Shown piece after piece: positions 16,745-52,825 of a DNA stretch of 64,000 nucleotides (its first letter is position 1; each line of letters opens with the position of its first letter). The stretch covers positions 1,208,501 to 1,272,500 of the forward strand of contig NZ_CP058350.1 of NCBI RefSeq assembly GCF_005860795.2. The letters run 5' to 3'. The notes under the pieces were generated by a model. It was not told the origin of the DNA. It worked only from the letters and a program-made list of their open reading frames with translations, and made no database searches. Source of the stretch: Peteryoungia desertarenae (lineage in GTDB: Bacteria; Pseudomonadota; Alphaproteobacteria; Rhizobiales; Rhizobiaceae). A program made the translations under genes and the position numbers.

Positions 16745-16880
16745 TTTGAACCTCCTGGGTCAGCCGGTCATGTCGGCCCTTGTTCGACAATATAGGATCA
16801 AGTGTCAGATCTGCGAAGGCAGCGGCTCGAATTCGGCGAAAAAACCATACCCTGCGTCGGGGGATGAAAAGTGCTGCCGC

Positions 16881-17201
16881 TCAGGCTGCAAAGCGGCCGG
16901 CAGGCGAGGGTTTCTTGTAACCCATCATCCAAAAGACGAGGGCAAGGCCGAAAAAGACGGCAAAGGCCGGCTGCGGTAAAATGACGGTCGAAAAAGCGGA
17001 CCACGTAGCTTGGCCCAGATACTGCTCGATCAGCGCTTGCAACGCCACGAGGCTATCCGGGCTGAAGTCGGAAATTGTTGCCGAAATTGGCGTGAGTGCC
17101 ACAGAGGAAATCGAAACAGATTGAATGGAATCGATCGTGGCGGCAATGACGCCCAGACATAGGGACAAAAGACTGCCCAATCGAAATATCAGCCGTACCA
17201 T
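16881..17201 (-). CDS. Conserved hypothetical small membrane protein
   Basis: 106 residues with an N-terminal hydrophobic segment (LIFRLGSLLSLCLGVIAATI) and a second near the C-terminus (AFAVFFGLALVFWMMGY), ending in a basic tail (KKPSPAGRFAA). The middle (about residues 25-75) is amphipathic and Ser/Leu-rich, probably periplasmic. ATG 17201 was chosen over an in-frame TTG at 17207. No function is recognised. It is adjacent to tRNA-Ser but points away from it. Confidence 0.7.
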   Translation of the reverse strand: MVRLIFRLGSLLSLCLGVIAATIDSIQSVSISSVALTPISATISDFSPDSLVALQALIEQYLGQATWSAFSTVILPQPAFAVFFGLALVFWMMGYKKPSPAGRFAA

Positions 17202-17382
17202 CAACAACCCTCGGCTTCCTCTGTGATCTCCTCTGCATGCGAGATCACTTATGTACGTCTCCTATACATGGCGAATTGGAAAATGAAGTCAAAAATCTGT
17301 CAGATTTCGGTTGATCCCGTCAGAATCCTCGGTATATATCGCGCCCGACCAACCGCGGTGGCTTTCCCCCGCGTTTCCCCCT

Positions 17383-17472
17383 GGACAGGTGGCCGAGTGG
17401 TTTAAGGCGCACGCCTGGAACGCGTGTGTGCGTGAAAGCGTACCGAGGGTTCGAATCCCTCCCTGTCCGCCA
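17383..17472 (+). tRNA. tRNA-Ser (anticodon GGA)
   Basis: Acceptor stem GGACAGG/CCTGTCC, a class-II long variable arm, anticodon stem CACGC/GCGTG around loop CTGGAAC (anticodon GGA, reading UCC/UCU), a T arm GAGGG-TTCGAAT-CCCTC and an encoded CCA at 17470-17472. Serine tRNAs are frequent integration sites. The accessory-looking block 17500-23100 starts directly downstream. Confidence 0.97.
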
Positions 17473-17498
17473 CTTGCCCGATTGTCCGGCCCGGACAC

Positions 17499-17533
17499 TT
17501 AGGTAACATCTTGTACCTAAGACATAGGTAACA
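17499..17533. repeat. Insertion-sequence-end-like repeat block
   Basis: Two direct copies of TAGGTAACA (17500-17508 and 17525-17533), 25 bases apart, plus an inverted pair TTAGGTA/TACCTAA (17499-17505 and 17514-17520). Read on the minus strand it begins TGTTACCTATGTCTTAGG, the style of multiple terminal repeats seen at ends of IS21/IS481-like elements. No transposase is present, so only a remnant end is suggested. Confidence 0.4.
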
Positions 17534-18084
17534 ACCTCGTGCGCGACGAGGCTTGTCGATGCTCTGCAAGTTTCTCTGATCGAGGTCGGTGTACCAAGTT
17601 TCCAATGCAAGAAACGGACACGCCGTTATTCTGCGTTCGAGATGAATCCTTGTCGCATCACAAGCACCAACGTGCGAGATGCGGGATGACCTGCCGGGCA
17701 TTGCGGGACATGCGTTATGACGGATTGCATGCGCCTGTTTTCAGTCGGAACGGGCAAAGTCGTTCTCGTAAGCTGCCGCCAGTTCGGCGATGACCGCCTT
17801 GTTCGGCGGCGAGGCGTGCAGGTGGAGCGAATTCATCGTAGATTGGGCCAGCAGGATCGCGAAAGCCTGCCGTTGTCCGCAGGAACTGCGCGAATTCATG
17901 CCCGAACATCCCGGAAACTGAAGCAACTCGACACCAGGCGGGTCTTCCACGGCAAAGCCATAAGGTTCTGATGGAGTGGCAGAGCCCTAGCCTCTCACGC
18001 ATGCGTCCCGTTCCAACCCAAACGCTGTGGGTGGCGCATGGCCGCAGGTCGCAATGTCGAATCTGATTATCATTGTTAAGTAGA

Positions 18085-18116
18085 TAGTTGACAGTGATAA
18101 CTACATCCATCAAATT
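18085..18116 (+). promoter_or_regulatory. Putative marR promoter and operator
   Basis: An imperfect palindrome TAGTT-N9-AACTA (18085-18103) overlaps a consensus -35 hexamer TTGACA (18088-18093). A weak -10 (CAAATT, 18111-18116) lies 17 bases on. An operator covering the -35 fits autorepression by the MarR protein encoded at 18147. Confidence 0.4.
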
Positions 18117-18146
18117 GCCCCGAAAACAGAAGAAGAAGGGCGCGCA

Positions 18147-18596
18147 ATGAAGGACTATCGGCTGCATCAGCGTCTGGGCTATCGGGTGTCTCGCTTGTCC
18201 CACCTTCTGCAGTCGAGCCTGGAGGCCATCCTTGCGAAGCACGCGCTTACCCGGCTCATGTGGTGCGTGCTGATTGGTGTCGGTGAGGAAGGCGTCACGA
18301 CACCCTCGGAGCTTGCCCATTATGTCGGTGTAACGAGACCTGCCATCTCGCGGCTCCTACGTGAATTGCAGAAAAAGGGATTGCTGGCGCGGGTTTCAGG
18401 GCAGGGTGCCGACGGCCGGTCGGTCGAGGTGGAACTGACAAATGCCGGACGTGCTGTGATTCAGTCCCTTCGTCCGCTGGTCGACGAACATCATGCCTAT
18501 TTTGCCGGCAAGCTGGAAGCTTCGGAGTACCAGGCCTTGATGCTCGCCTTGCAGCGGCTTCTCGATGGCGAGCGACAGGCTCTCGATCATTTTTGA
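18147..18596 (+). CDS. MarR-family transcriptional regulator of the dehalogenase locus
   Basis: 149 residues with the standard MarR winged-helix layout: N-terminal dimerisation helix (LGYRVSRLSHLLQSSLEAIL), HTH around residues 50-80 (TPSELAHYVGVTRPAISRLLRELQKKG) and wing GQGADGRSVEVELTNAG. MarR proteins bind palindromes and release DNA on binding small, often aromatic, ligands. It lies 66 bases upstream of the reductive dehalogenase in the same direction, so it probably senses the halogenated substrate or a product; this is inferred. Anaerobic rdh genes are also often accompanied by MarR regulators. Confidence 0.9.
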   Translation: MKDYRLHQRLGYRVSRLSHLLQSSLEAILAKHALTRLMWCVLIGVGEEGVTTPSELAHYVGVTRPAISRLLRELQKKGLLARVSGQGADGRSVEVELTNAGRAVIQSLRPLVDEHHAYFAGKLEASEYQALMLALQRLLDGERQALDHF

Positions 18597-18662
18597 TGCG
18601 CCGGATGGGCTCCAGCCCGGAAGGCCCAGGCTCTTGGTTGCTCAGGAGTGGGAGGAAGAAGA

Positions 18663-21600
18663 ATGCGTTTGTTTTCGACAAAGGATCGCCCTGTTCACCT
18701 AGGCGCCTTTCCCCTCGAACGGCTGAAAAGAACGCTGGCGCGACCGCCTGTAGAAAGCTTGGTGCTCCCCGAGCAACCCTTCGCGACACCTGCCGGTGAT
18801 TTGAGCCTTGGCCCTGCCATGGCCCGTTTCATGGGTATGTTCGATACGGTACGAGATGGTCCCGTTACCCATCAGGCTGCTGACATTCCTCCGTCGGAAG
18901 GGGAGCGTAGCCGCCATTTGAAAGCGGCGGCATATTTCTTCGATGCGGCCATGGTTGGAATCTGCGCATGTGAGCCGGCGCATTTTCTTCCAACGCCGCG
19001 TCGCAACCCGATGATTGACGAACTTCGTCTCGAACTGGAGGCTGGCCAACCGTCAAGTCATGCCGCCGGCATTGACCAGATCTATGCCGATGTTCTCGAT
19101 TCGGCGCGTACACCGCATGATCCCGTCAATCATCACGGCCATGCCATCGTCATCCTGGTCGATCACCTGCGCGAACCGCGTCTGGACGAACCGGGTTGCG
19201 ACTGGATCAGGAACCTGCAAGGTGAGCGGTCGGCTCTGCTGGCCGCAAACACCGCCGTTGTCCTGGCAAGCTATCTGAGGCTCTTGGGTTACGAGGCCCG
19301 TGCCCATAGCGAAACCACCACGGAGGTAGATCTCTGGCGTCTGTCGGTCAGCGCAGGCCTGACCGAGATCCGCAACGATCCCGCCGGTCAGACCTTTGCC
19401 GAGGCCCCGTTTGTCGGACGTAGCTTCGGACTTTCTGTCGTTACGACCACGATGCGACTGGAAACGGACCTGCCTCTGGCGCAAGGCGCGGCATCGGCGG
19501 CATCGGCGGCAAGGGGCTTGGGCAAGGGGACAGTGATTTCCCGCCCTGCCGACGCCTATCGCAGGCGCGACTTCTGCAAGGGCGCCTATCCGTTCGAACG
19601 GATCAAGCGTCGGGATTCACCAACCACATTCATCGACGAACCGCGTGTGCCCCGGTTCCCAAAGCGAGCCGATTTCTTCGCAAGAGCATTGTTCGGCGAC
19701 ATGGGCAAGAAGGTTCAGGATGCCGCCAAGGATGGTCACTATGTCATCAAGAGCCCCATTGGTGCCTGCGCGCGCCGGGCGCTCGGAGCCCTGCTGCTGC
19801 TGCAGTTTGGTGATGCCAAAGGGCCAGTTCATCCCTCCACCCGAGATCCGAAGCTGAATGCTGAAAACGTCAAGGCGGCGGGCTATTTCCTTTCTGCTGA
19901 TGCAATAGGCTTGTGTCGGGTGCCTGAATGGGCCTGGTATTCTCATGACAGCAGGGGGCAGCCGATTGCACCCTATCATGATCAGGCGATCAATCTGCTG
20001 ATCGACCAGGGGTTTGATACCATGGAGGGCGCAAGCGGCGACGACTGGATCTCCGTTGCCCAGTCAATGCGCGCCTATCTGCGCTTCTCGTTGCTTGGCG
20101 GGGTTCTGGCAGAGCATATGCGGCGTCTCGGCTACGGGGCGCGGGTGCATTCCGTCATCGATGGCGAGGTCCTTCAACCGCCGCTCCTGCTACTGTCCGG
20201 TCTGGGCGAAGTTAGCCGCATCGGCGAGGTCATCCTCAATCCCTATCTCGGGCCACGGCTGAAATCAGGAACGGTGACCACCTCCATGCCGCTCGATCAC
20301 GATAAGCCGATTGATTTCGGTCTTCAGCGCTTTTGTGAAGCCTGCAACAAATGCGCCCGTGAATGCCCTTCGGGTGCGATCACCGCCGGGCCGAAGCTGA
20401 TGTATAATGGCTATGAGATCTGGAAATCAGATGCCGAGAAATGCACCCGCTACCGTCTGACGAATGCGGCGGGCGGCATGTGTGGTCGTTGCATGAAGAC
20501 TTGCCCATGGAATCTTGAGGGACTGTTTGCCGACGACGCTTTCCGCAAGGTGGCCATGACCGCGCCATCGCTCGCCCCCGTATTGGCGGCCCTCGATGAC
20601 CGCCTGGGGCGAGGCAAGATTAACCCGGTCAAGACCTGGTGGTGGGACATCGAGCTGGATCGAAAGGCAAATCGTTATGTGAAGGCAGACGCCACCAACA
20701 GGCGTGGCATCAACCCGGATCTTGAACTGAGGGCGGAGGACCAGACACTGGCCGTCTATCCGGCAGATGTTATGCCAAAGCCCTTCCCCGTCACCCAGCC
20801 GCTTGATCGTCAGGAGGGGATCCGCCGGTACCGGCAGCTTCTGACGCCGACTGCCTATCGTGAGCGGCTCGATCGGGGTGAGACGGAAGGCCTTGCGCCC
20901 GGCCCCCAGCCGCATCAGGGTCCGCCGCCGGTGATGCCGGTGATCATTGCCCGGCGACAGGATCTTTCACCGGATATCATCCGCCTTGAACTGGTCGACC
21001 CGGAAGGAAACCCTCTGCCGGCCTTTGATCCCGGAGCCCATGTTGATGTGGTGATTGCCCCCGAATACCAGCGGCAATACTCCCTCGCGGGAAATTCCGC
21101 CGACAGGAGCCGGTATGTCATCGGCGTACAACGGGAAGCGTCGGGTCGCGGCGGCTCGCTTCTATTGCACCGGGTATTCCGGGAAGGCCGGCGCATTATG
21201 ATCTCTCCGCCGCGCAACCATTTCCCTCTCGCTGAACAGGCACCATTCACAGTGCTGATGGCCGGTGGCATCGGTGTCACGCCACTTCTGACGATGGCGC
21301 ACCGACTTCATGCGCTGGGCCGCGATTTCGCCCTGCATTACAGCGCATCGAACCGGGAAAAGGCAGCTTTCGCAAGCGAGATCGTGGCAGCACCTTGGGC
21401 CGGAAAGGCCAAGTTACACTTGAGTGAGGAGCGCGCGCGCGCGGACATGGCAACCCTGATCCCACCTTACGAGCAGGGTTTTCGACTCTATACCTGCGGT
21501 TCCGAGCGCTACATGACGGCCGTCTTTGCAGCAGCCACACAGAGAGACTGGCCTCCCGAGGCGCTGTCGCGGGAATTCTTCGAAATCCCCGAACCACCTG

Positions 21601-21881
21601 TTTATGAGAACCATCCATTTATACTCCATCTTGAGAAGTCAGGCATCTCTGTTCCAGTCGCCGCGGATGAGAGCGCAGTAGACGCGCTGGAACGTGTCGA
21701 TATCATCGTTCCCACCAAGTGCTCGGACGGCATTTGCGGGGTCTGCGCCGCAGGGCACGACGGTCGTCAGGCGATCGAGCATCGCGATCACGTTCTGTCG
21801 GAAGAAGAGCGCCGCAGCAGAATCATACTCTGCTGCTCTCGGGCAGCGGAAGCGGAAGGCAGCATCAGGGTCCAGCTTTGA
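18663..21881 (+). CDS. Reductive dehalogenase fused to FAD/NAD(P)H ferredoxin-type reductase
   Basis: 1072 residues. Residues 1 to about 300 resemble the cobalamin-binding part of RdhA but lack Fe-S cysteines (LGAFPLERLKR near residue 15). Residues about 300-650 are a complete RdhA module: a second copy of that motif (GAYPFERIKR), then CEACNKCARECP (C558, C561, C564, C568) for one 4Fe-4S cluster and C594 with CGRCMKTCP (C607, C610, C614) for the other. Residues about 745-960 form an FNR-like reductase (RQYSLAGNS near 804, GGIGVTPLL near 868). The end is a 2Fe-2S ferredoxin (C1020, C1025, C1028, C1057). No Tat signal is present, so it is cytoplasmic. The layout matches respiration-independent, NAD(P)H-driven BhbA-type enzymes that dehalogenate aromatics. 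ATG 18663 follows a strong GGGAGGAAG. Confidence 0.93.
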   Translation: MRLFSTKDRPVHLGAFPLERLKRTLARPPVESLVLPEQPFATPAGDLSLGPAMARFMGMFDTVRDGPVTHQAADIPPSEGERSRHLKAAAYFFDAAMVGICACEPAHFLPTPRRNPMIDELRLELEAGQPSSHAAGIDQIYADVLDSARTPHDPVNHHGHAIVILVDHLREPRLDEPGCDWIRNLQGERSALLAANTAVVLASYLRLLGYEARAHSETTTEVDLWRLSVSAGLTEIRNDPAGQTFAEAPFVGRSFGLSVVTTTMRLETDLPLAQGAASAASAARGLGKGTVISRPADAYRRRDFCKGAYPFERIKRRDSPTTFIDEPRVPRFPKRADFFARALFGDMGKKVQDAAKDGHYVIKSPIGACARRALGALLLLQFGDAKGPVHPSTRDPKLNAENVKAAGYFLSADAIGLCRVPEWAWYSHDSRGQPIAPYHDQAINLLIDQGFDTMEGASGDDWISVAQSMRAYLRFSLLGGVLAEHMRRLGYGARVHSVIDGEVLQPPLLLLSGLGEVSRIGEVILNPYLGPRLKSGTVTTSMPLDHDKPIDFGLQRFCEACNKCARECPSGAITAGPKLMYNGYEIWKSDAEKCTRYRLTNAAGGMCGRCMKTCPWNLEGLFADDAFRKVAMTAPSLAPVLAALDDRLGRGKINPVKTWWWDIELDRKANRYVKADATNRRGINPDLELRAEDQTLAVYPADVMPKPFPVTQPLDRQEGIRRYRQLLTPTAYRERLDRGETEGLAPGPQPHQGPPPVMPVIIARRQDLSPDIIRLELVDPEGNPLPAFDPGAHVDVVIAPEYQRQYSLAGNSADRSRYVIGVQREASGRGGSLLLHRVFREGRRIMISPPRNHFPLAEQAPFTVLMAGGIGVTPLLTMAHRLHALGRDFALHYSASNREKAAFASEIVAAPWAGKAKLHLSEERARADMATLIPPYEQGFRLYTCGSERYMTAVFAAATQRDWPPEALSREFFEIPEPPVYENHPFILHLEKSGISVPVAADESAVDALERVDIIVPTKCSDGICGVCAAGHDGRQAIEHRDHVLSEEERRSRIILCCSRAAEAEGSIRVQL

Positions 21882-22018: not shown

Positions 22019-22741
22019 TCACGACAGCAGCCAGGACGCTGCCAGAGGGGCAATCGCCGATGTCGCAACGGCATTGAGCGCCATGGCGATCCCCGCAAAG
22101 AGGCCTGCGGTCGGATTGACCTCATAAGCACGCGCGGTGCCGATCCCATGCGCGGTTAGCCCCACGGCAAAGCCGCGCGCGGCATAGTCGGTAATCCGCA
22201 TCAGGTTCATGAAGGGGGTGACCATCAGTGCTCCGACGATCCCGGTCATGATCACGAGCACGGCTGTCAGCGAGGGGTCACCGCCGAGCGATTGCGAAAT
22301 GGCCATGGCCACGCCTGCGGTTGCCGATTTCGGCAGGAAGGAGAGCATGATCTCCCGCGGCAGGTCAAACACCAGCCCCAGTCCCACGACCGAAGTCACA
22401 GCCACCACCGATCCGATGAGAAGCGCAACCGAGATCGGCACCAGAAGTGCGCGAACCTCCTTCCATTGCCGGTAAAGCGGCAGTGCAATCGCAACGGTCG
22501 CCGGTCCAAGCAGGAAATGAATGAACTGCGCGCCGGCGAAATAGCGCTCATAAGGCACATCCGCGATGATCATCATCACTGACAGCACGAGGATCGAGAC
22601 GAGCACCGGATTGGCGAGCGGATGCCGTCCCAGTTTCTTCGAGAGTTCGGACGCCATGATCCAGACGACAAGGGTCAAAGTCAGCCATAGCAGGGGCGAA
22701 GCGGACAGGTAGACCCAGAGTTCGATTGGTGACCTGTTCAT
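22019..22741 (-). CDS. lrgB: LrgB/CidB-family membrane protein
   Basis: 240 residues, nearly all hydrophobic with about seven to eight segments. LrgB hallmarks are present: LPKSATAGVAMAISQSLGG near residue 130 and LTAHGIGTARAYEVNPTAG near 190. LrgAB/CidAB proteins are holin-like or act as small-metabolite transporters affecting murein hydrolase activity and export of glycolate/pyruvate in other organisms. It overlaps lrgA by four bases (ATGA) and converges on the dehalogenase gene. Confidence 0.93.
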   Translation of the reverse strand: MNRSPIELWVYLSASPLLWLTLTLVVWIMASELSKKLGRHPLANPVLVSILVLSVMMIIADVPYERYFAGAQFIHFLLGPATVAIALPLYRQWKEVRALLVPISVALLIGSVVAVTSVVGLGLVFDLPREIMLSFLPKSATAGVAMAISQSLGGDPSLTAVLVIMTGIVGALMVTPFMNLMRITDYAARGFAVGLTAHGIGTARAYEVNPTAGLFAGIAMALNAVATSAIAPLAASWLLS

Positions 22742-23106
22742 GGCGCGCGCCTTCCGGCAATCAACCGGCTGACCAGGATGAAGGTCCACACGGTCACGGC
22801 CAGCGTGATGATTGCGGACAGGACCAGAACGGCTCCAATTGCCCCTGCATGAGTGCCCACGATGCCGCCAAGCGCCACCACGCCGACACCCGCAGGGACG
22901 AAAAACAGTCCGAGATTGCCCAGCAGCGTCTGGGCGGCCTGATCCACATGAATCACCTCCTGGTGTCGAAACCGCTGCAGGACTGGCAAGGTGGCCGACA
23001 GCAGGATCAGGCCAACCACAGGCCCCGGGATCGCGAGGTCTGAGAGAAAGACAAGGCTTTCGCCAAGCAGTTGGAAAAGAAGCAGGACGGCAAGGCCTCG
23101 AAGCAT
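22738..23106 (-). CDS. lrgA: LrgA/CidA-family holin-like protein
   Basis: 122 residues, four hydrophobic segments. The family motif IPGPVVGLILL is near residue 27 and NLGLFFVPAGVGV near residue 65. It is the partner of LrgB, encoded immediately downstream with a four-base overlap. The pair would form a two-part membrane system. Confidence 0.93.
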   Translation of the reverse strand: MLRGLAVLLLFQLLGESLVFLSDLAIPGPVVGLILLSATLPVLQRFRHQEVIHVDQAAQTLLGNLGLFFVPAGVGVVALGGIVGTHAGAIGAVLVLSAIITLAVTVWTFILVSRLIAGRRAP

Positions 23107-51718: not shown

Positions 51719-52825
51719 TCAGAGCGTACCCTGACGTTGCTGGATCATCTGATAGGTGTCGAAGGTGTATTCGGCGATCTGTGTCCAGAGATAGGCATCT
51801 TCCTTGAAGGCCTGCTGATGGTCGAAGATCTTCTTGAAAGCCTTATTGCTGGCCGAGAGCTCCGCATAGGTTTCCTTCGCTGCCTTGTGGCAGACATCAA
51901 GGATATCCGAGGAGAAGGCGCGAAGCTGGGTGCCATTGGCCACGAGCTGGCGCAGGGCTTCCGCATTGGACGCATCGTAGCGTGCCAGCATGCGGGCATT
52001 GGCGGCGGCGCAGGCATCGGTCAGGATGCGCTTGTAATTGTCCGGCAGCTCGTTGAAGCGCTCCAGATTGAAGAAGGCGTGTACGGCAGGACCACCTTCC
52101 CACCAGGCCGGATAGTAGTAGTAGGGCGCGACCTTGTAGAAGCTGAGACGCAGATCGTCATAGGGACCGACGAATTCGGTTGCATCGAGCGCGCCCTTTT
52201 CGAGCGCCGGATAGACATCCGAGCCAGCGATCTGCTGGGGCGTGACGCCAACCTTGCTCATGATCTGGCCCGCAAGTCCCGCAACCCGCATCTTGAGACC
52301 CTTGAGGTCCTCGATCGTCTTGATTTCCTTGCGATACCAGCCACCCATCTGGGCGCCTGTATTGCCGGCTGGCAGGGCATGGAGATTGTAGCCGGCGAAG
52401 AACTCGTTCATCAGCTCATTGCCGCCGCCGGCCGTGAACCAGGCATTGGTCATGCGAGCATTGAGGCCGAAGGGGATCGCAGTACCGAGCGCAAAGGTCG
52501 GATCCTTACCGATATAGTAGTATGAGCAGCTATGGGCCATCTCGACGGTGCCGGCGGCGACCGCATCGGCAGCTTCAAGGGCCGGGATGATTTCACCGGC
52601 GGCAAAGACCTGAATCTGGAAGGCACCATCGGTTGCCTCCGAGACGGAGCGGGCGATGTCTTCTGCGGCGCCGTAGATGATGTCGAGGCTTTTCGGGAAG
52701 GACGATGTCATGCGCCAGGAGAGCTTCGGGTTTTCCTGGGCAAGAGCCGGGGCGGCAAGCGCTGCGGACGAGGCGGCACCCATGCCGGCAAGGCCGGCCT
52801 GCTTGAAGAATTGACGGCGGTTCAT
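51719..52825 (-). CDS. TRAP transporter substrate-binding protein, TakP-like
   Basis: 368 residues. The N-terminus MNRRQFFKQAGLAG is a twin-arginine-type signal ending near APALAQ. The mature protein closely follows Rhodobacter TakP (2-oxo-acid binding): SWRMTSSFPKSLDIIYG, VFAAGEIIPALEAADAV, GNTGAQMGGWYRKEI, MRVAGLAGQIM, ATEFVGPYDD and YYYPAWWEGGP. The conserved Arg and Glu/Trp binding residues appear intact. ATG 52825 starts at the Tat motif. No TRAP membrane subunits are in the window, so its permease must be elsewhere. Confidence 0.93.
   Translation of the reverse strand: MNRRQFFKQAGLAGMGAASSAALAAPALAQENPKLSWRMTSSFPKSLDIIYGAAEDIARSVSEATDGAFQIQVFAAGEIIPALEAADAVAAGTVEMAHSCSYYYIGKDPTFALGTAIPFGLNARMTNAWFTAGGGNELMNEFFAGYNLHALPAGNTGAQMGGWYRKEIKTIEDLKGLKMRVAGLAGQIMSKVGVTPQQIAGSDVYPALEKGALDATEFVGPYDDLRLSFYKVAPYYYYPAWWEGGPAVHAFFNLERFNELPDNYKRILTDACAAANARMLARYDASNAEALRQLVANGTQLRAFSSDILDVCHKAAKETYAELSASNKAFKKIFDHQQAFKEDAYLWTQIAEYTFDTYQMIQQRQGTL

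Follow-up and report, generated by a model that had tools for sequence, protein, structure and literature searches.

Does Peteryoungia desertarenae carry a reductive dehalogenase (RdhA) that supplies its own electrons and is switched by its own regulator? The question is raised by two plus-strand genes, marR and then rdhA, in a 64,000-nucleotide stretch of its genome (hereafter the window), where the second gene encodes an RdhA fused to a reductase. Self-sufficient catabolic RdhAs are oxygen-tolerant and driven by NAD(P)H, which makes them the most usable dehalogenases for bromophenol clean-up, and only one had been studied in detail according to the authors of the JtRdhA report (PMC10463259). 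We think it likely that the locus is a laterally acquired, self-regulated catabolic dehalogenation unit, in which a MarR repressor governs an NAD(P)H-driven RdhA that removes ortho bromine or iodine. The enzyme is a sound but ordinary member of a known subfamily. What is new here, as read from the DNA, is a control region with a conserved candidate operator in front of a known kind of enzyme, and this is the added value of the finding.

A predicted self-sufficient RdhA with conserved active-site residues

Both open reading frames (ORFs) are intact, confirming the original prediction of a 1072-residue protein with a MarR gene directly upstream (Table 1). The rdhA ATG at 18663 has GGGAGGAAG shortly before it; an in-frame GTG at 18648, 15 bases upstream, would give a protein of 1077 residues. 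The gap of 66 bases between the two genes is consistent with a single operon.

Among solved structures, NpRdhA of Nitratireductor pacificus (4ras, E 8.3e-163) matches residues 1-105 and 157-737, and phthalate dioxygenase reductase (PDR; 2pia, E 9.6e-56) matches residues 761-1065. The match of residues 1-105 to the N-terminal part of NpRdhA scores 51 bits and the alignment resumes from 157 onwards, which bears out, at the level of sequence, the degenerate RdhA-like N-module that had been proposed; catabolic RdhAs carry a vestigial duplication (PMC10463259). The C-terminal part had been taken for an FNR-like flavin/NAD(P)H module with a 2Fe-2S ferredoxin. A fused reductase is indeed present, but its kind is that of phthalate dioxygenase reductase.

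The alignment with NpRdhA is identical at 231 of 500 mapped positions (46%), and F291, S422, M423, Y426, K488 and R552 of NpRdhA correspond to F339, S468, M469, Y472, K534 and R598 here. These six columns are invariant in an alignment of 28 sequences, BhbA included, and in another of 30, and the same six NpRdhA residues are given as conserved in JtRdhA (PMC10463259). The tyrosine, lysine and arginine whose loss was to speak against a dehalogenase are all conserved. The two 4Fe-4S motifs and the 2Fe-2S ferredoxin described earlier were also recovered, the latter as CX4CX2C at residues 1020-1028, and we read C594 as the probable fourth ligand of the second 4Fe-4S cluster.

The protein passes the NCBIfam reductive dehalogenase model TIGR02486 (186.2 bits, cut-off 160.35) and falls far below the cut-off of the QueG model TIGR00276 (27.3 bits against 200), which answers the concern that it might be closer to epoxyqueuosine reductase than to RdhA. 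The protein could also be a cobalamin/4Fe-4S reductase, QueG-like or otherwise, that does not dehalogenate. Enzymes of this sort belong to the same class III cobalamin superfamily (PMC10463259), and a Pfam dehalogenase-domain match was not obtained. Such a reductase is nevertheless extremely improbable given the low QueG score, the six conserved active-site residues, and a vestigial module and reductase fusion arranged as in BhbA and JtRdhA. The 1072-residue protein is instead predicted to be a self-sufficient catabolic RdhA like those two enzymes, a kind already known.

The first 80 residues of the fusion contain neither a twin-arginine pattern nor a hydrophobic stretch. A scan of small ORFs with at least two membrane stretches between 17000 and 24500 gave no rdhB candidate; the sole frames returned were those of lrgB and lrgA, on the opposite strand. 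The twin-arginine translocation (Tat) signal and adjacent rdhB anchor that mark respiratory reductive dehalogenases are thus both lacking, as had been predicted.

Relatives and distribution

The layout had been likened to both BhbA and NpRdhA, and the first comparison holds. BhbA (Comamonas sp. 7D-2, plasmid pBHB, WP_015585978) has the same domain order, a similar length and 50% identity. JtRdhA (Jhaorihella thermophila, WP_104007082) is alike in its vestigial and active RdhA modules, its equivalents of Y426, K488 and R552, its fused PDR-type reductase and its lack of a Tat signal (PMC10463259), and the RdhA-PDR subfamily to which the window enzyme belongs is described in the same report. NpRdhA (PDB 4RAS, 6ZXU) shares the vestigial and active modules and the six active-site residues, but it is unfused and requires separate redox partners (PMC10463259), and the comparison with its layout does not stand.

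The layout had also been called rare, which is overstated. Among the best 120 matches to residues 1-740, the window protein included, 118 of the other 119 are 1025-1126 residues long and one has 969; these relatives are 64-77% identical over residues 1-740, and about ten of them are without a precomputed Fer2 domain. An E value of 0.001 was reached by 4666 of 8000 scored candidates, other families included. A search of genome contigs found a relative encoded in 117 of 154 stretches, and the best 80 loci were retained. Of 72,556 plasmid records, 8 hold a relative that covers 80% or more of the query. Within the class, 31 of 385 genomes (its own included) match residues 1-736 at E 1e-60. Fusion in these genomes was judged by a full RdhA match together with an open frame of at least 1065 residues, and nine of the 385, again with its own, match from residue 1 or 2 to 734-736 in such a frame; the remaining matches are shorter or partial, except for one frame of 1259 residues matched at 159-724. 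The fused kind of RdhA is uncommon but well represented, not very rare.

In a quick tree of 87 rows (the window, 85 loci and one unfused outgroup, whose long branch leaves the root unsure), the window enzyme is sister to that of Pannonibacter carbonis, with 99% support in the Shimodaira-Hasegawa-like approximate likelihood ratio test (SH-aLRT) and 75% identity. Both fall in a clade of 14 rows (100%) whose named members are Rhizobiaceae, Phyllobacteriaceae, Stappiaceae and Paracoccaceae, while BhbA branches separately, together with Nitratireductor OM-1. Characterised enzymes were not found in the 14-row clade, so the window enzyme could serve to test whether a range limited to bromo and iodo substrates is general. 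In nine of the 14 rows, the window included, marR lies directly upstream.

The MarR regulator and its candidate operators

The marR product exceeds the Pfam cut-offs for the MarR domain (PF12802, 36.6 bits against 27; PF01047, 30.1 against 24.6) and shows weak similarity to HpaR (50.9 bits, cut-off 121). The palindrome over TTGACA, here called O1, lies exactly where it had been placed, and the MarR control that was proposed is supported by the conservation of such candidate sites. According to an iterated MarR profile, 15 of the 85 loci have a MarR gene no more than 400 bases from rdhA. In ten it lies upstream in the same orientation as rdhA, in three upstream and divergent, and in two downstream. 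The 15 are a lower bound because some loci end close to rdhA. L107 has an annotated marR next to rdhA as well, but the stop-to-stop ORF rule labelled it, and likewise L051, otherwise.

For the operator scan 15 loci were chosen; tblastn placed the MarR start in 13, and the 200 bases upstream were compared with the 19-mer of the window. Twelve of the 13 upstreams hold a site with 2-6 mismatches, a level reached by none of 300 dinucleotide shuffles. At five mismatches or fewer, the site is present in 11 of 13 marR-linked upstreams against 0 of 69 controls, these being the 69 of the other 72 loci with enough sequence 5′ of rdhA, at most 300 bases each, and including L051, L099 and a few loci with a more distant MarR gene; a 6-mismatch site occurs in three of the 69. 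Mean pairwise identity across the 11 same-strand loci, of which the window is one, is 0.79 within the site and a near-random 0.24-0.32 in the 20-base flanks, although the shuffles are the fairer control because the sites were picked as best matches. All 11 carry their own candidate operator, most with a second copy nearby. The symmetrised consensus is TAATTGACAATGTCAATTA, in which TTGACA resembles a -35 box. A degenerate pattern, TARTTGACANTGWTAAYTA, has a single match with up to two mismatches in the 4.34-Mb genome, so the regulator may serve the marR-rdhA operon alone.

A second candidate operator, O2, lies 21 bp from O1 and had escaped the original prediction. A matrix made from neither O1 nor O2 gives 24.6 bits for O1 and 20.4 for O2, the next score in the 200-base stretch being -6.1; across the 64-kb window the full matrix gives O2 20.3 bits and the next best other site 8.5. 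L023 and L029 have the same 21-bp spacing, as does L024, whose second site is weak (5.5 bits). The spacing is 28 bp in L025 and L026 and 13 bp in L027 and L040, and L044, L093, L104, L095 and L107 have one clear site only. We therefore rejected the idea that the operators form a phased pair as a rule: a distance of 21 bp corresponds to two helical turns, 13 and 28 bp do not, and a common two-dimer geometry is unsupported.

Repression is the direction we favour, but MarR proteins can also activate. In Pigmentiphaga, the MarR-family protein BhbR2 activates a 3-bromo-4-hydroxybenzoate operon. It binds both a TTGATT-N5-AATCAA palindrome and 3-bromo-4-hydroxybenzoate, and the inducer does not release it (PMC12016517). 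It differs from the regulator here in its site and in activating hydroxylase genes (PMC12016517). By analogy, the same enzyme could be served by a MarR activator that stays on the operators and aids the polymerase once the halogenated acid binds, and a -10 box that is poor by eye would fit. This seems unlikely to us, as O1 covers TTGACA just upstream of marR in the usual autorepressor layout and most MarR proteins are repressors (PMC12016517).

As for precedents, a literature search by title or abstract found neither a MarR operator nor a MarR regulator for any catabolic fused RdhA, which is not proof of absence. Rdh2R is reportedly a MarR-type regulator of dehalogenase genes. In Dehalococcoides, MarR regulators exert negative control over respiratory rdh genes (PMC6299228, PMC7755780). 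BhbA differs from the window in that its plasmid is typed conjugative, its gene sits amid protocatechuate-pathway genes, and no MarR match lies within the stretch scanned.

It is tempting to speculate that marR and rdhA together make up a mobile and self-contained "sense-and-dehalogenate" module, in which a single kind of MarR has moved with fused RdhAs between alphaproteobacterial families, an idea we find evenly balanced. If true, aerobic self-sufficient RdhAs may here have their first recognised control circuit dedicated to sensing halophenols, one that could be used as a ready bromophenol biosensor. With its conserved candidate operator, the locus offers a concrete regulator that can be put to the test and may provide a biosensor for halogenated phenolic acids.

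Genomic setting and probable acquisition

The distribution of the unit within the genus is restricted. Beyond weak QueG-like matches, the RdhA module was not found in 35 other same-genus genomes, whose remaining matches are reductases. The left flank has some match in 60 of 60 same-genus genomes, its own included, and extends over more than 600 bases in 49 of the 59 others. Among the matches listed, those to the stretch of the tRNA-Ser(GGA) gene end at 17472 or at most about 8 bases beyond (17479). In seven relatives, none of the next 12 kb past the tRNA matches the window at the nucleotide level, and a translated search of the same DNA gave scattered weak pieces. As the module was not found in the 35 congeners and synteny ends at the tRNA, the unit was probably acquired; it occupies a variable stretch next to a tRNA gene, and lateral gain is the simplest reading. 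The post-tRNA DNA of one relative matches, in parts, other places in the P. desertarenae genome, the two longest at a distance of 180-200 kb, so the loss of synteny may reflect a rearrangement.

The evidence does not show a classical integrated island flanked by direct repeats. No direct repeats occur within 16800-18200 (no search was made for repeats that would pair one side of the unit with the other), neither an integrase nor, in that interval, repeats mark an island at the locus, and the GC content of the region is not outstanding. L124, one of the seven relatives, carries after the tRNA an apparent tyrosine-integrase gene, recognised by eye.

A recently acquired copy might also be silent or decaying. 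Such a copy would suit a module that is present only in this species among the 36 same-genus genomes examined, its own included, and that adjoins a synteny break. It is at odds with the intact ORFs, the conserved catalytic residues and operators, and nonsynonymous divergence (dN) far below synonymous divergence (dS): estimated against Pannonibacter, dN is 0.19 and dS 1.6 for rdhA and 0.34 and 2.8 for marR, although synonymous sites are near saturation. We consider decay very unlikely.

Substrate and pathway

The genome encodes PobA (674 bits, on another contig), PcaH (372 bits) and, as one marker of aerobic corrinoid synthesis, CobN (1727 bits), all over their cut-offs. JtRdhA is NADPH-driven, works aerobically too, and debrominates or deiodinates ortho-phenols, 3,5-dibromo-4-hydroxybenzoate best; chlorinated phenolics inhibit it (PMC10463259). 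At the BhbA and Nitratireductor OM-1 loci, rdhA is accompanied by 4-hydroxybenzoate or protocatechuate genes. In view of the PobA, PcaH and CobN genes, our best guess for the substrate is 3-bromo- or 3,5-dibromo-4-hydroxybenzoate, or the iodo forms, which would be turned into 4-hydroxybenzoate and enter the protocatechuate route. The homoprotocatechuate (Hpa) pathway, a sink hinted at by the HpaR similarity, is unsupported, as HpaD has no match over the cut-off in the genome.

Alternatively, the main job of the enzyme may be to detoxify natural or man-made bromo- or iodophenols or halogenated signals rather than to support growth on bromo-4-hydroxybenzoate. JtRdhA also accepts simple bromo- and iodophenols and tetrabromobisphenol A (TBBPA; PMC10463259). 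No recognised catabolic gene was found beside rdhA, and divergent genes for a tripartite ATP-independent periplasmic (TRAP) transporter accompany only three of the ten same-strand marR-rdhA relatives (L023, L029 and L104). Detoxification is a possibility we hold only tentatively, since 4-hydroxybenzoate and protocatechuate genes accompany the relatives BhbA and Nitratireductor OM-1, and both PobA and PcaH are present in the genome.

Proposed mechanism

For the catabolic unit that we favour, we infer the following course. A low level of MarR would occupy O2 and O1, cover the -35-like box and repress its own operon until a halogenated phenolic acid enters the cell, binds MarR and causes its release. 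The 1072-residue enzyme would then be produced and remain in the cytoplasm, where NAD(P)H would reduce the flavin of the C-terminal reductase module. Electrons would pass from the flavin to the 2Fe-2S cluster, through the two 4Fe-4S clusters and on to base-off cobalamin in the RdhA module, and Tyr472, aided by Lys534 and Arg598, would give a proton as the ortho halogen leaves. The vestigial N-module may stand in for the dimer partner of respiratory RdhAs. Ortho-bromo- or ortho-iodo-4-hydroxybenzoates would in this way yield 4-hydroxybenzoate for PobA and protocatechuate 3,4-dioxygenase, whose genes lie elsewhere in the genome.

Several observations weigh against this account. On the side of the enzyme, Pfam at E 0.001 returned DmmA-like_N, Fer4_7, Fer4_16 and Fer2, the dehalogenase domain not being among the matches. 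The Pfam neighbours of rdhA (lrgAB, a thioesterase-family protein and a BMP-type ABC transporter) include no recognised catabolic gene and PobA is on another contig, so the pathway link is circumstantial. On the side of regulation, the existence of a MarR-type activator, BhbR2, means that repression is not certain, and the -10 box downstream of TTGACA looks poor by eye. The upstream of L089 is without the site (9 mismatches, a level reached in 299 of 300 shuffles), and L107, at 6 mismatches, is marginal and no better than the best three of the 69 controls. Operator spacing is also non-uniform, and a fixed two-dimer geometry is not conserved. In the estimate of selection, synonymous sites are close to saturated.

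Neighbouring genes and feature coordinates

Table 1. Coordinates of features at the marR-rdhA locus, numbered from the first letter of the window.
Feature	Position	Strand	Remarks
tRNA-Ser(GGA)	17383-17472	+	ARAGORN; left border of variable region
Candidate operator O2, TGATTATCATTGTTAAGTA	18064-18082	.	21 bp from O1
Candidate operator O1, TAGTTGACAGTGATAACTA	18085-18103	.	overlaps TTGACA -35-like box, 18088-18093
marR	18147-18596	+	149 aa; regulator of the MarR family that probably represses the operon and with it its own gene
rdhA-reductase fusion	18663-21881	+	ATG 18663, stop 21881; 1072 aa; predicted self-sufficient catabolic reductive dehalogenase
Putative vestigial (cobalamin-free) RdhA-like N-module	18663-19559	+	residues ~1-299; border by eye; aligned with NpRdhA 1-102 and 112 onwards
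Active RdhA module	19560-20882	+	residues ~300-740; holds F339, S468, M469, Y472, K534, R598
First 4Fe-4S motif, CEACNKCARECP	20334-20369	+	residues 558-569
Second 4Fe-4S motif, CGRCMKTCP	20481-20507	+	residues 607-615
PDR-type module (flavin, NAD(P)H, 2Fe-2S)	20931-21878	+	residues ~757-1072; 2pia match; Fer2 989-1060

The divergent TRAP genes beside marR lie at 2440-5398 in L023, 2563-5452 in L029 and 4546-7372 in L104, and the transporter is possibly an uptake system for the halogenated acid. The notion that O2 is a fossil of a lost divergent transporter was rejected as a firm claim, since the arrangement is found in only these three of the ten same-strand relatives. TRAP transporter genes were not found beside marR in the window, and its intergenic stretch holds no transporter remnant, a translated comparison with the loci giving only short matches (E 0.003). 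The closest relative of the Pannonibacter TRAP binding protein in the genome is only 29% identical. Elsewhere in the window, 52178-52783 on the minus strand shows weak similarity to a TRAP binding protein (25% identity, E 8.4e-6).

In the other seven same-strand relatives, ten neighbouring genes that were scanned are unrelated or unnamed: a tetrapyrrole methylase, two MTTB methyltransferases, a short-chain dehydrogenase, a 2-hydroxyacid dehydrogenase, CreA, an MFS protein, a HAD hydrolase and two without a Pfam match. The MTTB-family methyltransferase genes, at 3527-5143 in L025 and 3794-5329 in L026, are divergent from marR-rdhA with the operator sites between, and they are a possible second target of the regulator. 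Downstream of rdhA in the window, the lrgB/lrgA pair (22019-23106, minus strand) is accessory in the genus: about 1.06 kb is common to five of the 59 other same-genus genomes, and lrgAB occurs in short pieces in two further ones.

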